Part shown: piece after piece, positions 6,007 through 12,988 of the stretch
Position numbering within the stretch: the first letter of the stretch is position 1
Layout: every line of letters begins with the position of its first letter
From: Patescibacteria group bacterium
GTDB lineage: Bacteria > Patescibacteriota > Patescibacteriia > Patescibacteriales > WJLG01
Direction of reading: 5' to 3'
Assembly: GCA_028707065.1 (NCBI GenBank)
Contig: JAQTUZ010000009.1
Location: 1 to 48,615, forward strand
Length of the DNA stretch: 48,615 nt
Notes under the pieces: model-generated
Database searches by the model: none
Told to the model about the DNA's origin: nothing
The model's input: only the letters and a program-made list of their open reading frames with translations
Position numbers and translations under genes: made by a program

Positions 6007-9000
6007 TTACGGTTCCAGAATCTTAACACCGGTGACCTTGGTGATCGACAGCAACAGCTTGTACAACGGCGAGGCTTCGGACGAATCCTGCCAGCCGATG
6101 TTGCCGGTTGTTGCGGCGCCATCCAAAGTATCGAGGTCAACCTCGACCCAGTCATTGCCCGTACCCGATTCCATAGCGGAGACATCACCCTTAATGGCGT
6201 AATAGCTGGTGTCCTGCTTCACGATCTGGGCGTCAACGCCAAGATGAGACATAAGCGGGAAGACAACCGGACCATTGGCCGTGGTGACGAGAGTGGTGGC
6301 ATAGGTGGTGCTGCCGGTGGTGCCGCTGCACTTTTCGATAGTCCAGAAATCGAAAGTGGTGGTGGCGTTCTTGAGAACGTTCACGCGGATCGAGCTAAGA
6401 ATGGTCTTAACCGGATCGCCAGTGGACAAAGTATTGCTATTGGCATCGGTCGTAACCTTGAGAATAGCAAGGGTGTTAGGACCGCCGCTCAAGGAAGTCG
6501 CCAAAGCGCAACCAGGCGCGGAAGCAACCAAGTCAACCGAGGAGATTCTCGACGCAACGCTGTCAATGACTTTGGACTGATCAGTGCGCATATTCTTTTG
6601 CGCCGCAGTCGAAACCGCGTAGCAGACCTTGCTTGACGCGCAAGTGCCGCTGGTCGTGGTCGTCGCTTCAGTCAAAGTTACGTTGGAAGAAACTCCCTTG
6701 GAGTTGGTCAAATCAGAAATAACGAAGGAGGAGGAAGCATGCGAGACGTTAATCTGATCCTGACCGATCGGATTCAAGACGCCCTTCAAGTACAGAGTTT
6801 CCGTACCGACCGGCACAACATGGTTGAAGCCGGTGAAGGTGGTTGAAGCCAAAACGTCGTTTACCGAGGCCAAAACCAGGCCGGAAGAATCGGTAATCGA
6901 CAAGCTGGCGAACATCTTGTTGGCATTAGTGTTGCCAATGGTGGTGGTCGGATCAAGGACGCCAACAGTGAGGTCCTGGATCTTCACGGCTTCATTGGTC
7001 GCTCTCAATTTGATCGCGGCCAAATAACCGGTCGAAGCGGCGCCATCAACCTGGATGGTGTCTCTCGAGGTGTTGGTGTCGGTGTTGTCAATCGCGACGA
7101 ACAGCGAACCAGAACTCAAGAAGGCAACCTTTCTGGCGGAATTCATCACTGAATCCATGGTGCCATCGAGATTGCTATCGTTGGTCGCATCGTAAACGCT
7201 ATTATTGTCAACATCACCGATAGAATAAGCGGAAACGCCCAAATAGACGCCCTTGCCGCTCAAAGTGTTGTCGCTGTTGATATCCTCGGTCACGCAGTAC
7301 TGTACTGTCTGGTTGGCCGGGATGCTCAACGACAAGTTGTTGAAATCGATAACGTTAGTCGCAACCGTCGAAACTGATTTTATCGGGGTGGTGCCAGGCA
7401 CGCCGCCCGGGCATTGATAGAGGCGGAATTGGGAAATCGCGTGCGAAGCAGCCAAGGTGGTGGTAAATAAGGTCGTGCTGCCCGTGAACTGCAGATCAGT
7501 AACTTTCAAGTCCGAAGTCTGGTTGGCCTTCATGTTGAAGTAAACGGCCAAAACATTGGTCGTACCAACAACCTTGCTGAACGGAGTCGACAACGGATTG
7601 ATTGAGAAGGTCACAGCCGGAGCCTGCACGGTCACCGAATTATAGGTGACGGAGTTCGGAGTAATGTCGGTGATCGCGGTGTTGTTCTGGTCATGGACGA
7701 TCAAATCGGTTGTCGCGTTAGCTATGGCGAAGACATAGCTCTGATTGGTGGAGGACGCTTTCACGTCAGCCACGAGATCAAAGGTATAAGTCTGGCCGGT
7801 AGTTAAAGTCTTGCCGATATTGTTGATCGCGCCATAAACCTTGGCGTAAGCGGCGCCGGAAGCATACTCCAGGTCAAATCCCTGGCCAGTGGACTCTTCA
7901 ACCAGCTTGACGTTTTCAATGCTGCGGAAGGCGACACTGCCGATATTACCATCGTTAGTGCCGGTAATGGTGACTTTCAAGGTGTCGAAAGTAGCGTTAG
8001 CGCTGCTATTCGAAGTGATCTTGAGAACACCAAACACCACGCCCGTGGAATTTGATTTAACCTTGTCGCTCGGAGCTTGAGCCACGCCTAAAGCGATCGT
8101 GCCGGCATTGATAACAAAGCCTCTGGTGCCAGCCGCATAGGTGCTCTGATAGAACGAATTCACGGAGGCGGTAATCGTGGCCGATTGGCCGTAAACACTG
8201 CCCACCGCGTCGATATCAGAAGTGGAATCAACGGAAATGACAGTCGTATCAGCGGCGCGGCCGTCAACTATGTCAGCATGCACTTCGAATTTGACGGTCT
8301 GGTTCTTCTTGATCACCAACGGAGAGGTCAAAACGAAAGTGGCATAACCATTGGATTTTCCAGAAAAGCCCGCGGAGCTGGCGATTTTCACGCCATTCAG
8401 ATATAAAGCCAGATTGGCAAAATCAGAATTGACGGAAGTGCCATCCGATCTCTGGACCGTAATGGAATTCAAAGTGATTTCTTCCACGTTATCATTGGCG
8501 AATTTGAATTTACCAATGACCGCGTTAACATCGCCCAAATTCACATCAGACGGATTGCCGTCCTGAGAAAGGGTTAAAGCGCCAACAGTAACATCGACAC
8601 CGCTCATCGTATTGCCAGCGATCGGGAAAGAACCCGAAACAGTGGCGCCGGAAGCGCTGATGTCAGCCGCCTGCAAAACGCTTAAGTTATGCTGATTGGT
8701 ATCGGTGATTTTGGCTTTCACGGTGATCGCGACAGTCTGGCCGGCCGGAATCGATAACGGAGTGGCCAGATTGAAGATCGCCTCGCGGTTGGAGTCGACA
8801 GTATTCTTAACATTGCCGATTCTGGTGCCGTTCGCGAAAAGAACAACATTCGTTATGGCGGAAACAGCGCCCAAACCGTCGGCAGTCAAAGTGATACCGT
8901 TAATAAGAGCCGCGCCATCATTGGAAGCGGTCAAATTAAATTTCAACATCGGAACCGAGGAATTTTTAGCCACGGAAGCAGCAGCCGGAGAATCGGAAGC

Positions 9001-9747
9001 TAACGCAACCGAAACGGCACTGCCGCCGGCAACCGGACCCGGAACCACGCCGCTCTGCGACACAGTGTTCAAACCGCTCTCAATACCATTTACGACAGCC
9101 CCGGTAGAGGGCATGACATAAGCGGTCGGAACAGTCGCCACGTAGTCGAAGTTATAGCTATTGGCATCAAAAGCCGCCTGTGAGGCGAACTTTCTGGCCG
9201 TACCATCGGCAGCCAAGAGCATGACGTCCGGAGAACCGGCAGTCTTGATCAGCTGGCCAATCGGATACGCGCCGACAGCTAACGGAGTGCCAACCGTGTA
9301 GTTGACAAAGAAAGAATCGGGAACATCGATAACCATCTTGGCCCAATTGGCGCCCCAAAGACTGATGGCGTTAGCTTCGCTAACGATCGATCTTAAAACG
9401 CCGTTCGGTTCAACCGCGTAAACGGTATTGATGCTCGGAGATTTGATTAATTTAGTACCCGGTCTAACGACGACGTTCGCGGCTAAAGGATAACCTTCCA
9501 TTTCAGAAGCAGGAATGGTTATCACGCCGGAGAAGTCCTTGTACCAGGAAAAATAAGTCGACTGATTCGGGAAAACATATCTCTTACCGTTGGCGCCAAG
9601 ATAATACACGGAAGAAAGACCGTTAATCTTGATCAGATCGCCGGCCGAGGCAGCCGCGCTCGCTCCTTGCGGGGCGACAACAACTGACATCGACAAGACG
9701 GTCATAAACATGACGCTGCCGATAAGAATTTTTCTTAACATACTCAT
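6007..9747 (-). CDS. S-layer-like major surface protein
   Basis: 1246 residues, starting M-S-M-L-R-K (a second ATG lies at 9741). Signal peptide with hydrophobic core at about residues 8-25 and likely cut after A-S-A. Residues about 38-215 hold three copies of a small module with a Y-x-L-G-x-N-G-K-R-Y / V-E-P-N-G-V-L-R / A-A-D-G-T-A-R-K core. The rest is a chain of Thr/Ser/Val/Asn-rich beta-sandwich (Ig/cadherin-like) repeats of 100-150 residues; four Cys lie in the last third. Size, composition, own terminator and long upstream leader suggest an abundant secreted protein. Patescibacteria are known to carry S-layers. The role is inferred; no anchoring motif is recognised. Confidence 0.8.
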   Translation of the reverse strand: MSMLRKILIGSVMFMTVLSMSVVVAPQGASAAASAGDLIKINGLSSVYYLGANGKRYVFPNQSTYFSWYKDFSGVITIPASEMEGYPLAANVVVRPGTKLIKSPSINTVYAVEPNGVLRSIVSEANAISLWGANWAKMVIDVPDSFFVNYTVGTPLAVGAYPIGQLIKTAGSPDVMLLAADGTARKFASQAAFDANSYNFDYVATVPTAYVMPSTGAVVNGIESGLNTVSQSGVVPGPVAGGSAVSVALASDSPAAASVAKNSSVPMLKFNLTASNDGAALINGITLTADGLGAVSAITNVVLFANGTRIGNVKNTVDSNREAIFNLATPLSIPAGQTVAITVKAKITDTNQHNLSVLQAADISASGATVSGSFPIAGNTMSGVDVTVGALTLSQDGNPSDVNLGDVNAVIGKFKFANDNVEEITLNSITVQRSDGTSVNSDFANLALYLNGVKIASSAGFSGKSNGYATFVLTSPLVIKKNQTVKFEVHADIVDGRAADTTVISVDSTSDIDAVGSVYGQSATITASVNSFYQSTYAAGTRGFVINAGTIALGVAQAPSDKVKSNSTGVVFGVLKITSNSSANATFDTLKVTITGTNDGNIGSVAFRSIENVKLVEESTGQGFDLEYASGAAYAKVYGAINNIGKTLTTGQTYTFDLVADVKASSTNQSYVFAIANATTDLIVHDQNNTAITDITPNSVTYNSVTVQAPAVTFSINPLSTPFSKVVGTTNVLAVYFNMKANQTSDLKVTDLQFTGSTTLFTTTLAASHAISQFRLYQCPGGVPGTTPIKSVSTVATNVIDFNNLSLSIPANQTVQYCVTEDINSDNTLSGKGVYLGVSAYSIGDVDNNSVYDATNDSNLDGTMDSVMNSARKVAFLSSGSLFVAIDNTDTNTSRDTIQVDGAASTGYLAAIKLRATNEAVKIQDLTVGVLDPTTTIGNTNANKMFASLSITDSSGLVLASVNDVLASTTFTGFNHVVPVGTETLYLKGVLNPIGQDQINVSHASSSFVISDLTNSKGVSSNVTLTEATTTTSGTCASSKVCYAVSTAAQKNMRTDQSKVIDSVASRISSVDLVASAPGCALATSLSGGPNTLAILKVTTDANSNTLSTGDPVKTILSSIRVNVLKNATTTFDFWTIEKCSGTTGSTTYATTLVTTANGPVVFPLMSHLGVDAQIVKQDTSYYAIKGDVSAMESGTGNDWVEVDLDTLDGAATTGNIGWQDSSEASPLYKLLLSITKVTGVKILEP

Positions 9748-9929
9748 ATTAAGTACTTTCGGAAGCCTTATCTGAATGTTTACACATTTACATGCGCAAA
9801 CAATTCAAGTAAAGCAGAATTGCTTTTGAACTTTCAAGGATGACGGTTCCATTGCAAATCAATTGGAATCCCATACCCTACCCGACAGGAAAGACAATGT
9901 ATTTGACTTTATGGAAACAGCCGCTAAGC

Positions 9930-10225
9930 CGCTTCCAGGCTTCTTCTAGAAAAGAAGCCGCTTGCAAGGCAGAGCAAAATTTAGCTGATTTGCTCCGGCC
10001 GAGGAACGCGATATTTCGCGTTCTTGTCTCCCCTACTTGTTCATAAGCAAAATTAAATAATTTTTGTAAGAAGGAATCCGTCTTATCCTCGTTTAGACCA
10101 GTCGTCGGAACGCGATATTCTGCGTTCCGATCCCTGACAAAAGATAAGATTCGACCTTTAGGGAATTCCCTAGTCTGTTTAGACCAGACCCATTAAGTCC
10201 GAACTTGTTCGGAATTAATGGCTCC
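9930..10225. ncRNA. Hairpin-rich region upstream of the S-layer-like gene; possible structured leader or small RNA
   Basis: Six compact hairpins in 300 bp: 9938-9959 (GGCTTCTT/AAGAAGCC), 9972-9995 (GAGCAAA/TTTGCTC), 10004-10023 (GAACGCG/CGCGTTC), 10106-10129 (CGGAACGC/GCGTTCCG), 10161-10172 (AGGGAATTCCCT) and 10191-10222 (15-bp stem, CCATTAA...TTAATGG). The two GGAACGCG hairpins are related. No credible ORF lies here. It may be the 5' leader of the surface protein mRNA or a separate RNA; no known RNA family was recognised. Confidence 0.5.
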
Positions 10226-10241
10226 GTCTAAATGCAATTTT

Positions 10242-11060
10242 CTATTTTATAAAGATGGAATATATCTTATCAATAAATTTCATCACCGGATTATTGCGCA
10301 GTTTATCCAGGGCGGCCGGATTGACGGAAACAACACTTTCTTTGAATAAGTCTGAAAGTTTTAAATCATTATTACTGCAGACGGCGATGAAATAAAGCGG
10401 TTTGCTCTGCCCGGAAAAATAAACCTCTCCCCTGCCTCCGGCCCTGATCAGGCTGGCAATTCCGTTCGTCTGTTCCAGGATATATATATTTTTAAAATAC
10501 TTTTTTAATATTTCCTCGAATTCGCCGCGGGTGAATTCGCGAAGGTGGTAAGGATTTTTTTGGCCGAACACTTCGCGATTAGGCGTGGAAACCAAAAAAA
10601 TTCCTTCCTCATCCAAAACTCGGGCGATCCCGGCCAAATATTTTTCCGCATTGGTTAAATGTTCGATAGTTTCGAAGGAAACAACCAGATTGAACGACTT
10701 GTCGGCCAGATCGGTCTCCCCTCCTTCCGAAGGAGATCCCCCCTCCTTTCCAAGGAGGGGTTTGGGGGTGGTTGCGAGGGGGTGGGTTTCCTCCGCGTCG
10801 CCGACCATAAAAACAATATTGCCGGCAGAATATTTTTCCCTGGCTGCCGCGATCGCTTCCGGACTTTTATCAACCGCCGTAACTTTTTGCGCTCCGGCTT
10901 CGGCTAAAATTTTCGAACCATAACCTGATCCGCAAGCAATATCCAGAATATTTTTACCGGCCGCGATTTGCGCCGCTAATTGATAACGAACCAGATGCTC
11001 GTCGTAAATAATATTCGAACGATTCTCTTTATTGATGATTAATCTTTCCTCAAAAACCAT
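10242..11060 (-). CDS. Class I SAM-dependent methyltransferase
   Basis: 272 residues from the ATG at 11060. Motif I, I-L-D-I-A-C-G-S-G-Y-G-S, is at residues 38-49 and the acidic motif II, V-D-K-S, at 63-66. V-V-S-F-E-T-I-E-H matches motif IV/V of UbiE/Methyltransf_11-type enzymes, which move a methyl group from S-adenosylmethionine. The substrate cannot be told; nearby glycan and surface genes make a sugar or lipid possible. Residues about 92-115 (T-T-P-K-P-L-L-G-K-E-G...) are encoded by an inserted palindromic element and interrupt the Rossmann domain between beta strands. The longer ORF start translates the 11064-11094 repeat and was rejected. Confidence 0.8.
   Translation of the reverse strand: MVFEERLIINKENRSNIIYDEHLVRYQLAAQIAAGKNILDIACGSGYGSKILAEAGAQKVTAVDKSPEAIAAAREKYSAGNIVFMVGDAEETHPLATTPKPLLGKEGGSPSEGGETDLADKSFNLVVSFETIEHLTNAEKYLAGIARVLDEEGIFLVSTPNREVFGQKNPYHLREFTRGEFEEILKKYFKNIYILEQTNGIASLIRAGGRGEVYFSGQSKPLYFIAVCSNNDLKLSDLFKESVVSVNPAALDKLRNNPVMKFIDKIYSIFIK
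10716..10800. repeat. Palindromic element inserted in frame in the methyltransferase gene
   Basis: Contains CCCCTCCTTTCCAAGGAGGG and CTCCTTCCGAAGGAG hairpins and a G/T-rich tail, as in the intergenic ACCCCTCC family. It encodes a low-complexity Pro/Gly/Leu loop without breaking the frame. Confidence 0.75.
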
Positions 11061-11063
11061 ACT

Positions 11064-11266
11064 CACGTAACACATATCACGTAACACGTAACATGGCGAA
11101 AATAAAAATATTTTTAAAATAATCACCTTTTCTCTTGAATCAAATGTTGTTTTAAAAATTTAGCCAATAAGGATAATTGTTATGTGTTATGTGTTATGTG
11201 TTATGTGTTATGTGTTATGTGTTATGTGTTATGTGTTATGTGTTATGTGTTATGTGTTATGTGTTA
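11064..11266. repeat. Perfect 7-bp tandem array (TATGTGT)n with an inverted partner
   Basis: 11179-11266 is about 12 uninterrupted copies of TATGTGT. 11064-11094 carries ACGTAACAC / ATATCACGTAACACGTAACAT units, roughly the reverse complement. The array supplies the stop codon of the DUF5667 gene (11264-11266). The unit is not a multiple of 3. Confidence 0.9.
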
Positions 11267-12289
11267 TTTTCCGCTCGAGCTGCCGACAGCTCCGGCCGAA
11301 TTGCCGACGCTGGTGGAAGCTCCCGGTTCGCTAACGCCTTTAACTATTCCAAAATCGATTTTTTCAATAATTTTTCCCACTTGATCCAGCATATCCTTGG
11401 CTCCGGAAAAATCTTTCGTCTCAAAAGACTGAGTCGCCTTATCCAAGGTGGTATTAATATCAGCCGGGGTAGTCGTGGAAGAAGCCGCGGTGGAAGTTGC
11501 CAGACTGGAAACACTGTTCGAGGAAACGGTTTGCGGCACCAGTAAAGAAGAGGTAACTACTCCATCATAAGCGGTATTTTTTAAAACGGCATTGGGATCG
11601 TAAAGCTGCAATCCTTTGTTATCCTTGCCCGATTCCACGCCATAAACTTTGCCTTCAGCATCCTTTTGCATGCCGCCGATGCCAACCTTGGCATCATCGT
11701 TATTCCCGGCCAAATTGCCGTTAGCGTTATTGGCCGCCGCTCCGGAAGCGGGAAGGGCGGAATTTTTTTGCTGCATCTCGCTGATTTCCGAATATCTTTC
11801 TTTCACCGTATTAATTTCCTGTTTGAAATTTTGCGCCAGTTGCTCCGCTTTCTTTTGATTTCCCGCGGCATTAAAATTCGGATTGGATAATATTTCTGTG
11901 ATCTCCCTGGCATGGATGTTCGCCAGCTTCATATCGAGTTTCGCTTTATCCTCCTGATCGAAAGTCATCAGCAACTGGATATTTTCTTTCCAAACTTTGA
12001 CAATATATAAATTGTCTCCCGGCTTGGAATTTTGGGCCGCCAGCGCGCCCAGGCTGCCGCCGGTCAAAATTATCACTAAACCAATAACGGCCCAAGCGGT
12101 GGCCGGCAAAAAAGAAAAAATATTTTTCAAATCATAGGCCATCACTTCGAAAAGATTAACTTTAATTTCCTTGCCGACGGAATTGGAAATTTGCGCCAAC
12201 AAAACATCCCGGGCCTCCTGTTTCCAGGAAGACTCGGGTCTTGTTTCTTTTAAAATGCTCAACTTTTTAATTAACTCATGATCGGTCAT
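11264..12289 (-). CDS. DUF5667-type membrane protein downstream of an ECF sigma factor
   Basis: 341 residues from the ATG at 12289. Residues 1-50 are soluble and helical; one transmembrane helix lies at about 57-80. Next comes the DUF5667 signature, K-P-G-D-N-L-Y-I-V-K-V-W-K-E-N near residues 86-100, with helical K-A-K-L-D-M-K-L-A and heptad-like segments, then a Ser/Thr/Ala-rich tail. The family is known mainly from Patescibacteria and often follows sigma genes. The position 130 bp after the sigma gene suggests a membrane-anchored anti-sigma or sensor role (inference). The 40-residue upstream extension of the ORF looks non-coding. The last codons run into the TATGTGT array. Confidence 0.75.
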   Translation of the reverse strand: MTDHELIKKLSILKETRPESSWKQEARDVLLAQISNSVGKEIKVNLFEVMAYDLKNIFSFLPATAWAVIGLVIILTGGSLGALAAQNSKPGDNLYIVKVWKENIQLLMTFDQEDKAKLDMKLANIHAREITEILSNPNFNAAGNQKKAEQLAQNFKQEINTVKERYSEISEMQQKNSALPASGAAANNANGNLAGNNDDAKVGIGGMQKDAEGKVYGVESGKDNKGLQLYDPNAVLKNTAYDGVVTSSLLVPQTVSSNSVSSLATSTAASSTTTPADINTTLDKATQSFETKDFSGAKDMLDQVGKIIEKIDFGIVKGVSEPGASTSVGNSAGAVGSSSGK

Positions 12290-12421
12290 AAGAATGATGG
12301 GGACAAACTTTTTTGAAGTTTTAATTGGGCAAATTACGTTGTACTCTTTATACCTAATAATACGTAAAACCGGGTAAAACGTTACAGTTGACAAAACCGG
12401 AAAAACCAATCATTGTGATGA

Positions 12422-12988
12422 TCATTTTTTCTCTTCCAGCAGATCTTTCAAAGCCTGCAGGGCGCGAAAAGTCTGCACGCGCACCGAACCGGTTGTCTTG
12501 CCGGTTACTTCGGCTATTTCGGCAAAGGATAACTCATCCACAAAGCGCATTAAGATCATTTCCCGATATTCCTCTTTAAGTTTAGCCAAGCCGGCTTTGA
12601 CCAAGCCCATATCGGATAAAACTTCCGCCTGCTGCTCCAAATTTTGCTTTTCGTCAGAAAGCATTCCTATCACGCCGTTTTCAAAGACATCCAGCCTGGC
12701 CTCGGTTTCCCGCAATTGCCGATAATGATCAATGATCAAATTTCTGGCTGTTTTATAGATAAAAGCCCGTAAAGACTTGCTTTCATCCAACCCCTGGCTT
12801 TGGGCGTAATTCCAAACCTTAAGAAAAACCGCCGAGGTCAAATCCTTGGCTTCTTCGGCATTGCTAATTTTAAAATAAGCAAAACGATAAATATCGTCCG
12901 CGTACAAATCATAAGCCTCGATAAAAGCATTTTTATCTTTTTTCTTGACTCGAAAAAACAATTTTTTGTCCTGTCGGTTCTTATTCAT
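12422..12988 (-). CDS. ECF-type RNA polymerase sigma factor (sigma-70 family)
   Basis: 188 residues. Region 2 is seen at about residues 20-90 (A-Y-D-L-Y-A-D-D-I-Y-R-F-A and D-L-T-S-A-V-F-L-K-V-W) and region 4 at about 125-185 (Y-R-E-M-I-L-M-R-F-V-D-E-L-S-F-A-E-I-A, then a recognition helix T-G-S-V-R-V-Q-T-F-R-A). No region 1 or 3, so group 4. It would direct RNA polymerase to a special set of promoters; the DUF5667 gene just downstream is its likely partner. The 132-bp spacer contains the related words CGTTTTAC and GTTTTACG near a TATAAA, which could be a promoter for the partner gene. No Shine-Dalgarno. Confidence 0.9.
   Translation of the reverse strand: MNKNRQDKKLFFRVKKKDKNAFIEAYDLYADDIYRFAYFKISNAEEAKDLTSAVFLKVWNYAQSQGLDESKSLRAFIYKTARNLIIDHYRQLRETEARLDVFENGVIGMLSDEKQNLEQQAEVLSDMGLVKAGLAKLKEEYREMILMRFVDELSFAEIAEVTGKTTGSVRVQTFRALQALKDLLEEKK

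Follow-up and report, generated by a model that had tools for sequence, protein, structure and literature searches.

A multi-domain structured RNA upstream of S-layer-like genes across one order of Patescibacteria

The window, by which we mean the whole 48,615-nucleotide stretch that was analysed (contig JAQTUZ010000009.1 of assembly GCA_028707065.1), carries on its minus strand a gene for an S-layer-like protein of 1246 amino acids (6007 to 9747). An intergenic gap of 494 nt (9748-10241) separates this gene from that of a SAM-dependent methyltransferase immediately upstream (10242 to 11126, minus strand; Pfam Methyltransf_11, 4.2e-19). Further upstream on the same strand are genes for a DUF5667 protein (11264 to 12409; Pfam) and an ECF sigma factor (12422 to 12988; NCBIfam sigma70-ECF superfamily, above its cut-off). 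The S-layer-like protein itself matched nothing in Pfam, SLH domain included, or in NCBIfam at E 0.001, and its S-layer identity is therefore one that we infer; the product is probably a very abundant surface-coat (S-layer) protein. A homolog is present in 90 of the 111 genomes of the order. Many of the 80 S-layer-like genes collected below, that of the window (9747) included, lack by eye a clear Shine-Dalgarno sequence in front of the ATG; AAAGGA stands before the ATG at other such loci, e.g., L030 and L070.

Compact hairpins were located at 9913-9936, 9938-9959, approximately 9967-9992, 10002-10024, 10106-10129, 10159-10172 and 10190-10221. They occupy most of the gap, confirming the hairpin array that the original prediction had placed before the S-layer-like gene at 9930-10225. 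One additional hairpin, at 9765-9815, lies beyond those coordinates. The array is thus present where it had been described, but the conserved RNA extends further, reaching about 9851 and probably 9765. Two of the hairpins had been called related, and the GGAACGCG pair is indeed 90% identical over 21 nt. The minus strand of the gap, which is the sense of the S-layer-like gene, folds at -182.6 kcal/mol compared with a mean of -125.6 for shuffled sequences (z -9.66), and the plus strand gives a z of -6.93; neither value was equalled by any of 100 shuffles. At 20 chosen loci, z was below -3 for the sense strand of the corresponding leader in 17 (mean -6.02) and for the antisense strand in 16 (mean -4.98), with the sense strand folding better in 15. 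Stretches further upstream reached z < -3 in 0 of 19 cases. Because the sense and antisense energies are close, the strand preference should be considered modest, and the case for an RNA rests on covariation.

Upstream stretches were collected for 80 homologs in 78 of the 90 homolog-bearing genomes, leaving out L098, whose contig stops where the gene does, as well as any second homolog without an N-terminus match. The 15-base motif GGGATTCCRRYYGAT (at least 13 of 15 matches, at most 320 nt from the start codon) was found in 69 of the 80 stretches, compared with about 0.4 of 80 in mononucleotide shuffles. With this motif ends, on the 3′ side, a folded domain that is designated D and ranges in size from 60 to about 340 nt. 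Helix P1 closes this domain; an AAGC strand and helix P2 follow, and GGGAUUCC leads back to P1. The GGGATTCC motif is missing in 11 of the 80 upstream regions, of which L021 and L035 have less than 300 nt of sequence and L052 has domain D further upstream. Its interpretation as a promoter element was dropped, the motif being one strand of the covarying domain.

In the window, domain D was assigned to 9851 to 9996 (minus strand) on the basis of covariation and of a match to R1, a covariance model of the domain. It consists of the closing helix P1 (9983-9993 with 9854-9864), the inner helix P2 (9968-9974 with 9876-9883), the strand GGGAUUCC that joins P2 back to P1 (9865-9872), and variable hairpins at 9938-9959 and 9913-9936. 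R1 matches the window with an E value of 3.6e-9; note that the window sequence was among the 47 from which R1 was built. The window member is divergent, scoring 51.7 bits where other loci score up to 105.8. P1 and P2 are part of its minimum free energy fold, yet their pair probability is only about 0.2. In the canonical form of the domain (e.g., L056), a hairpin loop with the sequence CCCCAUG could form a pseudoknot with the GGGG strand of P2. This hairpin is, by eye, absent in f1, the family of the window, and in many members of f16.

When 61 whole domain-D sequences were aligned with MAFFT and folded with RNAalifold, most of the structure was lost. Due to this variability in the middle of the domain, P1 and P2 were assigned by hand on an alignment (A2) of 47 of the 69 domain-D sequences, from which near-duplicates, overlong members and some members with an extra inserted hairpin or an odd middle were left out. 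In P2, 82.7% of cells were paired, with double-sided changes at six of nine pairs. In P1, 97.2% of cells were paired, with double-sided changes at 8 of 10 pairs, although this count is biased by a first placement of the P1 5′ strand that used pairing in part. For the two helices together, 125 double-change cells were counted compared with 38.5 in shuffles, and 14 pairs carried a double change compared with 10.1 in shuffles, 8 of 500 of which reached 14. When the partner strand was slid by one to three columns, pairing fell from 90.4% to at most 54.1%. Because of the bias in P1, the test was repeated with placement by sequence only, using the 27 loci that have exactly one AGCTTT-type match. Here, 9.4 of 10 pairs formed on average between strands of the same locus and 8.1 between swapped strands, a result not reached in any of 10000 permutations.

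The 5′ strand of P2 has two possible partners, one local and one distal. After near-duplicates and short domains had been removed, 44 loci gave mean scores for own and swapped partners of 16.94 versus 13.0 for the local pairing and 16.11 versus 12.84 for the distal pairing (0 of 5000 permutations each), but such permutation results overstate independence because related loci resemble each other. The own partner outscored every other in 7 of the 44 loci for the local pairing and in 6 for the distal one. Both alternatives are weak in the window member, which scores 10.5 and 9.5.

A second domain, B, occupies approximately 10071 to 10171 (minus strand) and comprises an outer helix S1 (10163-10171 with 10071-10079), the conserved strand AAAGGUCGAA (10150-10159) and an inner helix S2 (10143-10149 with 10081-10087). 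Counting near forms, the motif AAGGUCG was found upstream of domain D in 63 of 69 loci compared with 9.9 expected from shuffles, the motif having been chosen by eye from the data in which it was counted. It lies on the 5′ side, between S1 and the inner hairpin S2. The alignment of domain B (A3) was out of register on its 3′ side, and a partner-swap test was therefore used in place of a pair count. Among 55 of the 63 loci, near-duplicates having been removed, S1 strands scored on average 15.95 with their own partners and 12.04 with swapped ones (0 of 5000 permutations); the own partner was the single best in 11 of the 55. In the fold of the window, the pair probability is 0.82-0.97 for S2 and 0 for S1.

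Domains B and D are accompanied by hairpins on either side. Domain A (10178 to 10232, minus strand) is a long 5′ hairpin with a core at 10190-10221 (CCATTAATTCCGAAC..GTTCGGACTTAATGG) and an outer stem. Of 15 core positions tested, 12 have pair probabilities of 0.9-1.0, and a compensatory change converts CAUUAA/UUAAUG of the window to CGUUAA/UUAACG in a sister species (G001). By eye, many other loci have a long hairpin of differing sequence at this position before B. Domain E (9765 to 9815, minus strand) is a hairpin near the start codon whose inner stem has a probability of 0.53-1.0. For the hairpin at the corresponding position, 18 chosen f16 sequences were aligned (A4), other f16 members being left out. 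In these, 89.9% of cells were paired compared with 74.5% in shuffles, and 22 double-change cells were counted compared with 6.9; two of the five measures, namely pairs with a double change (4 versus 3.3) and further pair types (12 versus 10.5), were not above shuffles.

R1 matched 69 of the 111 genomes of the order, at a single place in each. Sixty-five of these matches lie on the same strand as a homologous S-layer-like match and 38-385 nt upstream of it, and the other four (G019, G082, G088 and G097) are at contig ends. Because the sequences used to build R1 came from these loci, matches there are obtained by construction, and weight is placed on the single copy and on the lack of matches elsewhere. 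Twelve of the genomes listed for the S-layer-like gene gave no R1 match, and at least two of them (G007 and G027) have a divergent domain (L028 and L065). Note that searches over more than 40 genomes at once apply stricter filters, with which weak matches are lost. Matches were obtained in 16 of 285 genomes of the class and in 3 of 379 genomes of the phylum, both samples including members of the order. Outside the order, these two samples yielded one weak match under strict filters that may miss divergent relatives. This class-level match (G346, 32.8 bits) was rejected as it falls inside a coding frame of 280 codons, presumably lgt. Among 18 named loci encoding relatives of the protein, the element was found in five, namely L100, L103 and the Candidatus Falkowbacteria loci L101, L102 and L104, and was absent from a fourth Falkowbacteria locus (L105) and from the 12 others.

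The array of the window is therefore its version of a multi-domain RNA that is kept before homologous genes across one order of Patescibacteria. A lack of structural conservation, which the original prediction had named as part of the outcome that would speak against it, is not what the homologous upstream regions show. In the sister species the same region is present at 73% identity, with a differing upstream context. At its locus (L002, approximately 1950-2100), AAATCCGAAAT-type repeats stand directly before the leader in place of the upstream context seen in the window.

The two related hairpins carrying GGAACGCG do not look like part of this conserved core, since both are copies of a dispersed palindrome, GAACGC-N8-GCGTTC, to which no strand is assigned. 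The copy at 10106-10129 forms the tip of domain B and is shared with the sister species, and the copy at 10002-10024, in the linker that separates B from D, stands opposite an alignment gap in the sister species. The 20-bp palindromes proper are at 10108-10127 and 10004-10023, and further copies were seen in L040, L043 and L003. The pattern has 16 sites in the genome of the window (G000), 14 in G001 and none in G002, whereas a reversed-pattern control gave 0 or 1. Eight of the 11 distinct copies in the fetched loci are within stop-free frames of at least 90 codons, which are frames and not established genes. In four cases palindromes occur in pairs 30-48 bp apart, and CGTAG or CTACG adjoins some copies. 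Because the palindrome is scattered in two genomes and one of the window's copies is missing in the sister species, the related hairpins look like insertions of small dispersed elements into variable parts of the leader. The palindrome itself looks like a small mobile element, with a habit similar to that of the palindromic elements of Rickettsia.

Database searches agree with the earlier suggestion that the region could be an unrecognised RNA. At the gathering cut-off, Rfam 15 gave a single match over the whole window, a tRNA elsewhere, and nothing in the gap. Relaxing the threshold to E 10 for 9740-10300 gave four snoRNA or miRNA matches, all below cut-off, and six related loci searched up to E 5 gave 11 matches, none of which reached cut-off. 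A search of a phage collection gave no match. Sites resembling intrinsic terminators were found between domain D and the start codon in 2 of 69 loci compared with 1.9 expected, i.e., at the level of chance, so that transcription attenuation is not supported as a mechanism. Among the loci with 200 nt or more of sequence at that place, of which there are up to 63, sigma-70-like promoters stood upstream in 13 compared with 18.2 expected, and a sigma-70 promoter shared across the order is likewise not supported. The sigma-70-like match at 10273-10244 is no evidence of a transcription start because the count of one such site does not exceed that of shuffles (1.7).

The covarying helices and the near-invariant strands AAGGUCG and GGGAUUCC show that a multi-domain RNA stands directly upstream of the S-layer-like gene across the order, in one copy in each matched genome. 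Its nature as an RNA-level element and its position in cis are well supported by these comparisons. The original prediction had proposed a long structured leader that protects the S-layer mRNA. The leader part agrees with an order-wide structure present in one copy per matched genome, on the same strand as and just upstream of the same gene. With a probability of about 0.6, we take the region to be a structured part of the S-layer mRNA, either a leader or an intercistronic segment, that acts in cis on the stability or translation of this mRNA, probably by switching its conformation. In many loci a same-strand open frame ends upstream of the leader, and by eye its C-terminus is often DUF5667- or methyltransferase-like; five upstream-frame proteins were scanned, yielding two methyltransferases, one DUF5667 protein above cut-off, one below cut-off and one protein without a match. 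Due to these same-strand upstream genes the leader may be intercistronic, and it may separate S-layer expression from that of a low-level upstream operon. A DUF5667-like gene is frequent before the leader by eye, and in the window this gene follows that of the ECF sigma factor, which may therefore be a regulator of the coat locus.

In the mechanism that we envisage, the leader would be transcribed together with the S-layer-like gene and would act on the mRNA once transcription has begun. The invariant strands AAGGUCG and GGGAUUCC would be docking sites for a protein or ligand, and the stability of a very abundant message, or ribosome access to it, would be set by the fold. In members with a full domain D, the choice between the local and the distal partner of P2 looks like a two-state switch, which would be weak in the window member. 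A more far-reaching version is possible and is offered tentatively. It would make the leader an undescribed class of large regulatory RNA of approximately 350-500 nt that is built from domains A, B, D and E and restricted to a single order of Patescibacteria. Its competing helices would take the RNA from one of two folds to the other around AAGGUCG and GGGAUUCC as these bind a ligand or protein. Synthesis of the surface coat would then be set by sensing, for example, the state of the envelope or contact with a host.

Protection of the message could in principle be passive, with stable 5′-side hairpins shielding an abundant mRNA from nucleases. The very stable fold beside a gene for a probably abundant protein fits such a role, as do, in the available text of the reports, the long-lived S-layer mRNAs of Bacillus anthracis (PMC8056022) and the stem-loop in the slpA leader of Lactobacillus acidophilus (PMC6482533). 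Stability alone, however, needs neither near-invariant AAGGUCG and GGGAUUCC strands nor one defined architecture across an order, and we regard a purely passive stabiliser as rather doubtful. Those same joining strands between covarying helices, together with a mutually exclusive pairing conserved across loci, are the anatomy of a riboswitch. Domains B and D could form an aptamer for a metabolite or ion and the alternative helices its expression platform. A published candidate, the SLH motif, precedes S-layer-homology genes in other phyla according to the available description (PMC6429828). A riboswitch nevertheless seems unlikely, in that intrinsic terminators are not enriched (2 of 69 loci versus 1.9) and the matches that can be placed (65 of 69) precede an S-layer-like gene and not genes for transport or biosynthesis.

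The remaining alternatives deny a leader altogether. An independent noncoding RNA acting in trans, upstream of the S-layer gene by happenstance, would account for the size and multi-domain build, which resemble those of large noncoding RNAs, and for the single copy per matched genome. Such an RNA would have no need to keep a position 38-385 nt before a single gene, as is seen in 65 of 69 genomes, and terminator-like sites downstream of domain D are no more frequent than chance, which makes this explanation improbable. Strong folding of both strands, and the identity of two hairpins with a dispersed palindrome, could point to an element acting at the level of DNA, such as a promoter, an operator or a group of mobile palindromes. 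Against this, P1, S1 and hairpin E show compensatory changes, which are a signature of RNA, the model matches have a fixed orientation relative to the gene (65 of 69), and sigma-70-like matches are not enriched; we therefore consider a DNA-level element very improbable.

The leader is undescribed in the literature and databases searched. That an entire order of tiny bacteria keeps it directly before the S-layer-like gene suggests a new RNA device for the control of this gene. It is generally assumed that members of the Patescibacteria live fixed to host cells and that the two meet at the cell surface, and to our knowledge little is known of their regulatory RNAs. A large RNA tied to a probable coat gene throughout an order would add a level of control that has gone unrecognised in these bacteria. 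The leader is a defined sequence that can be probed in vitro without culturing the organism, and its near-invariant strands and covarying helices allow a direct search for a ligand or protein. Among known systems, the 5′ stem-loop of Escherichia coli ompA is an mRNA stabiliser in which a hairpin lies near the 5′ end of the mRNA for an abundant envelope protein. It is far shorter and simpler than the leader described here and has no near-invariant joining strands.

Among the matches listed in the literature search, no RNA leader was described for S-layer genes of Patescibacteria, the nearest relative in the available text being a motif from other phyla, SLH (Stav et al. 2019, PMC6429828). That motif is reported from Synergistaceae, Firmicutes and metagenomes, approximately 60% of examples preceding SLH-domain genes, and is likewise a structured RNA before surface-layer genes that was proposed as a riboswitch candidate. 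As described there, it is set apart from the present leader, which belongs to an order of Patescibacteria and precedes a protein without a Pfam match, SLH included. The slpA mRNA of L. acidophilus, as cited in the available part of PMC6482533, likewise has a large folded untranslated leader on an S-layer message, in that case a computer-predicted stem-loop of one gene that is thought to be protective; the leader described here differs in having several domains and covariation across an order.
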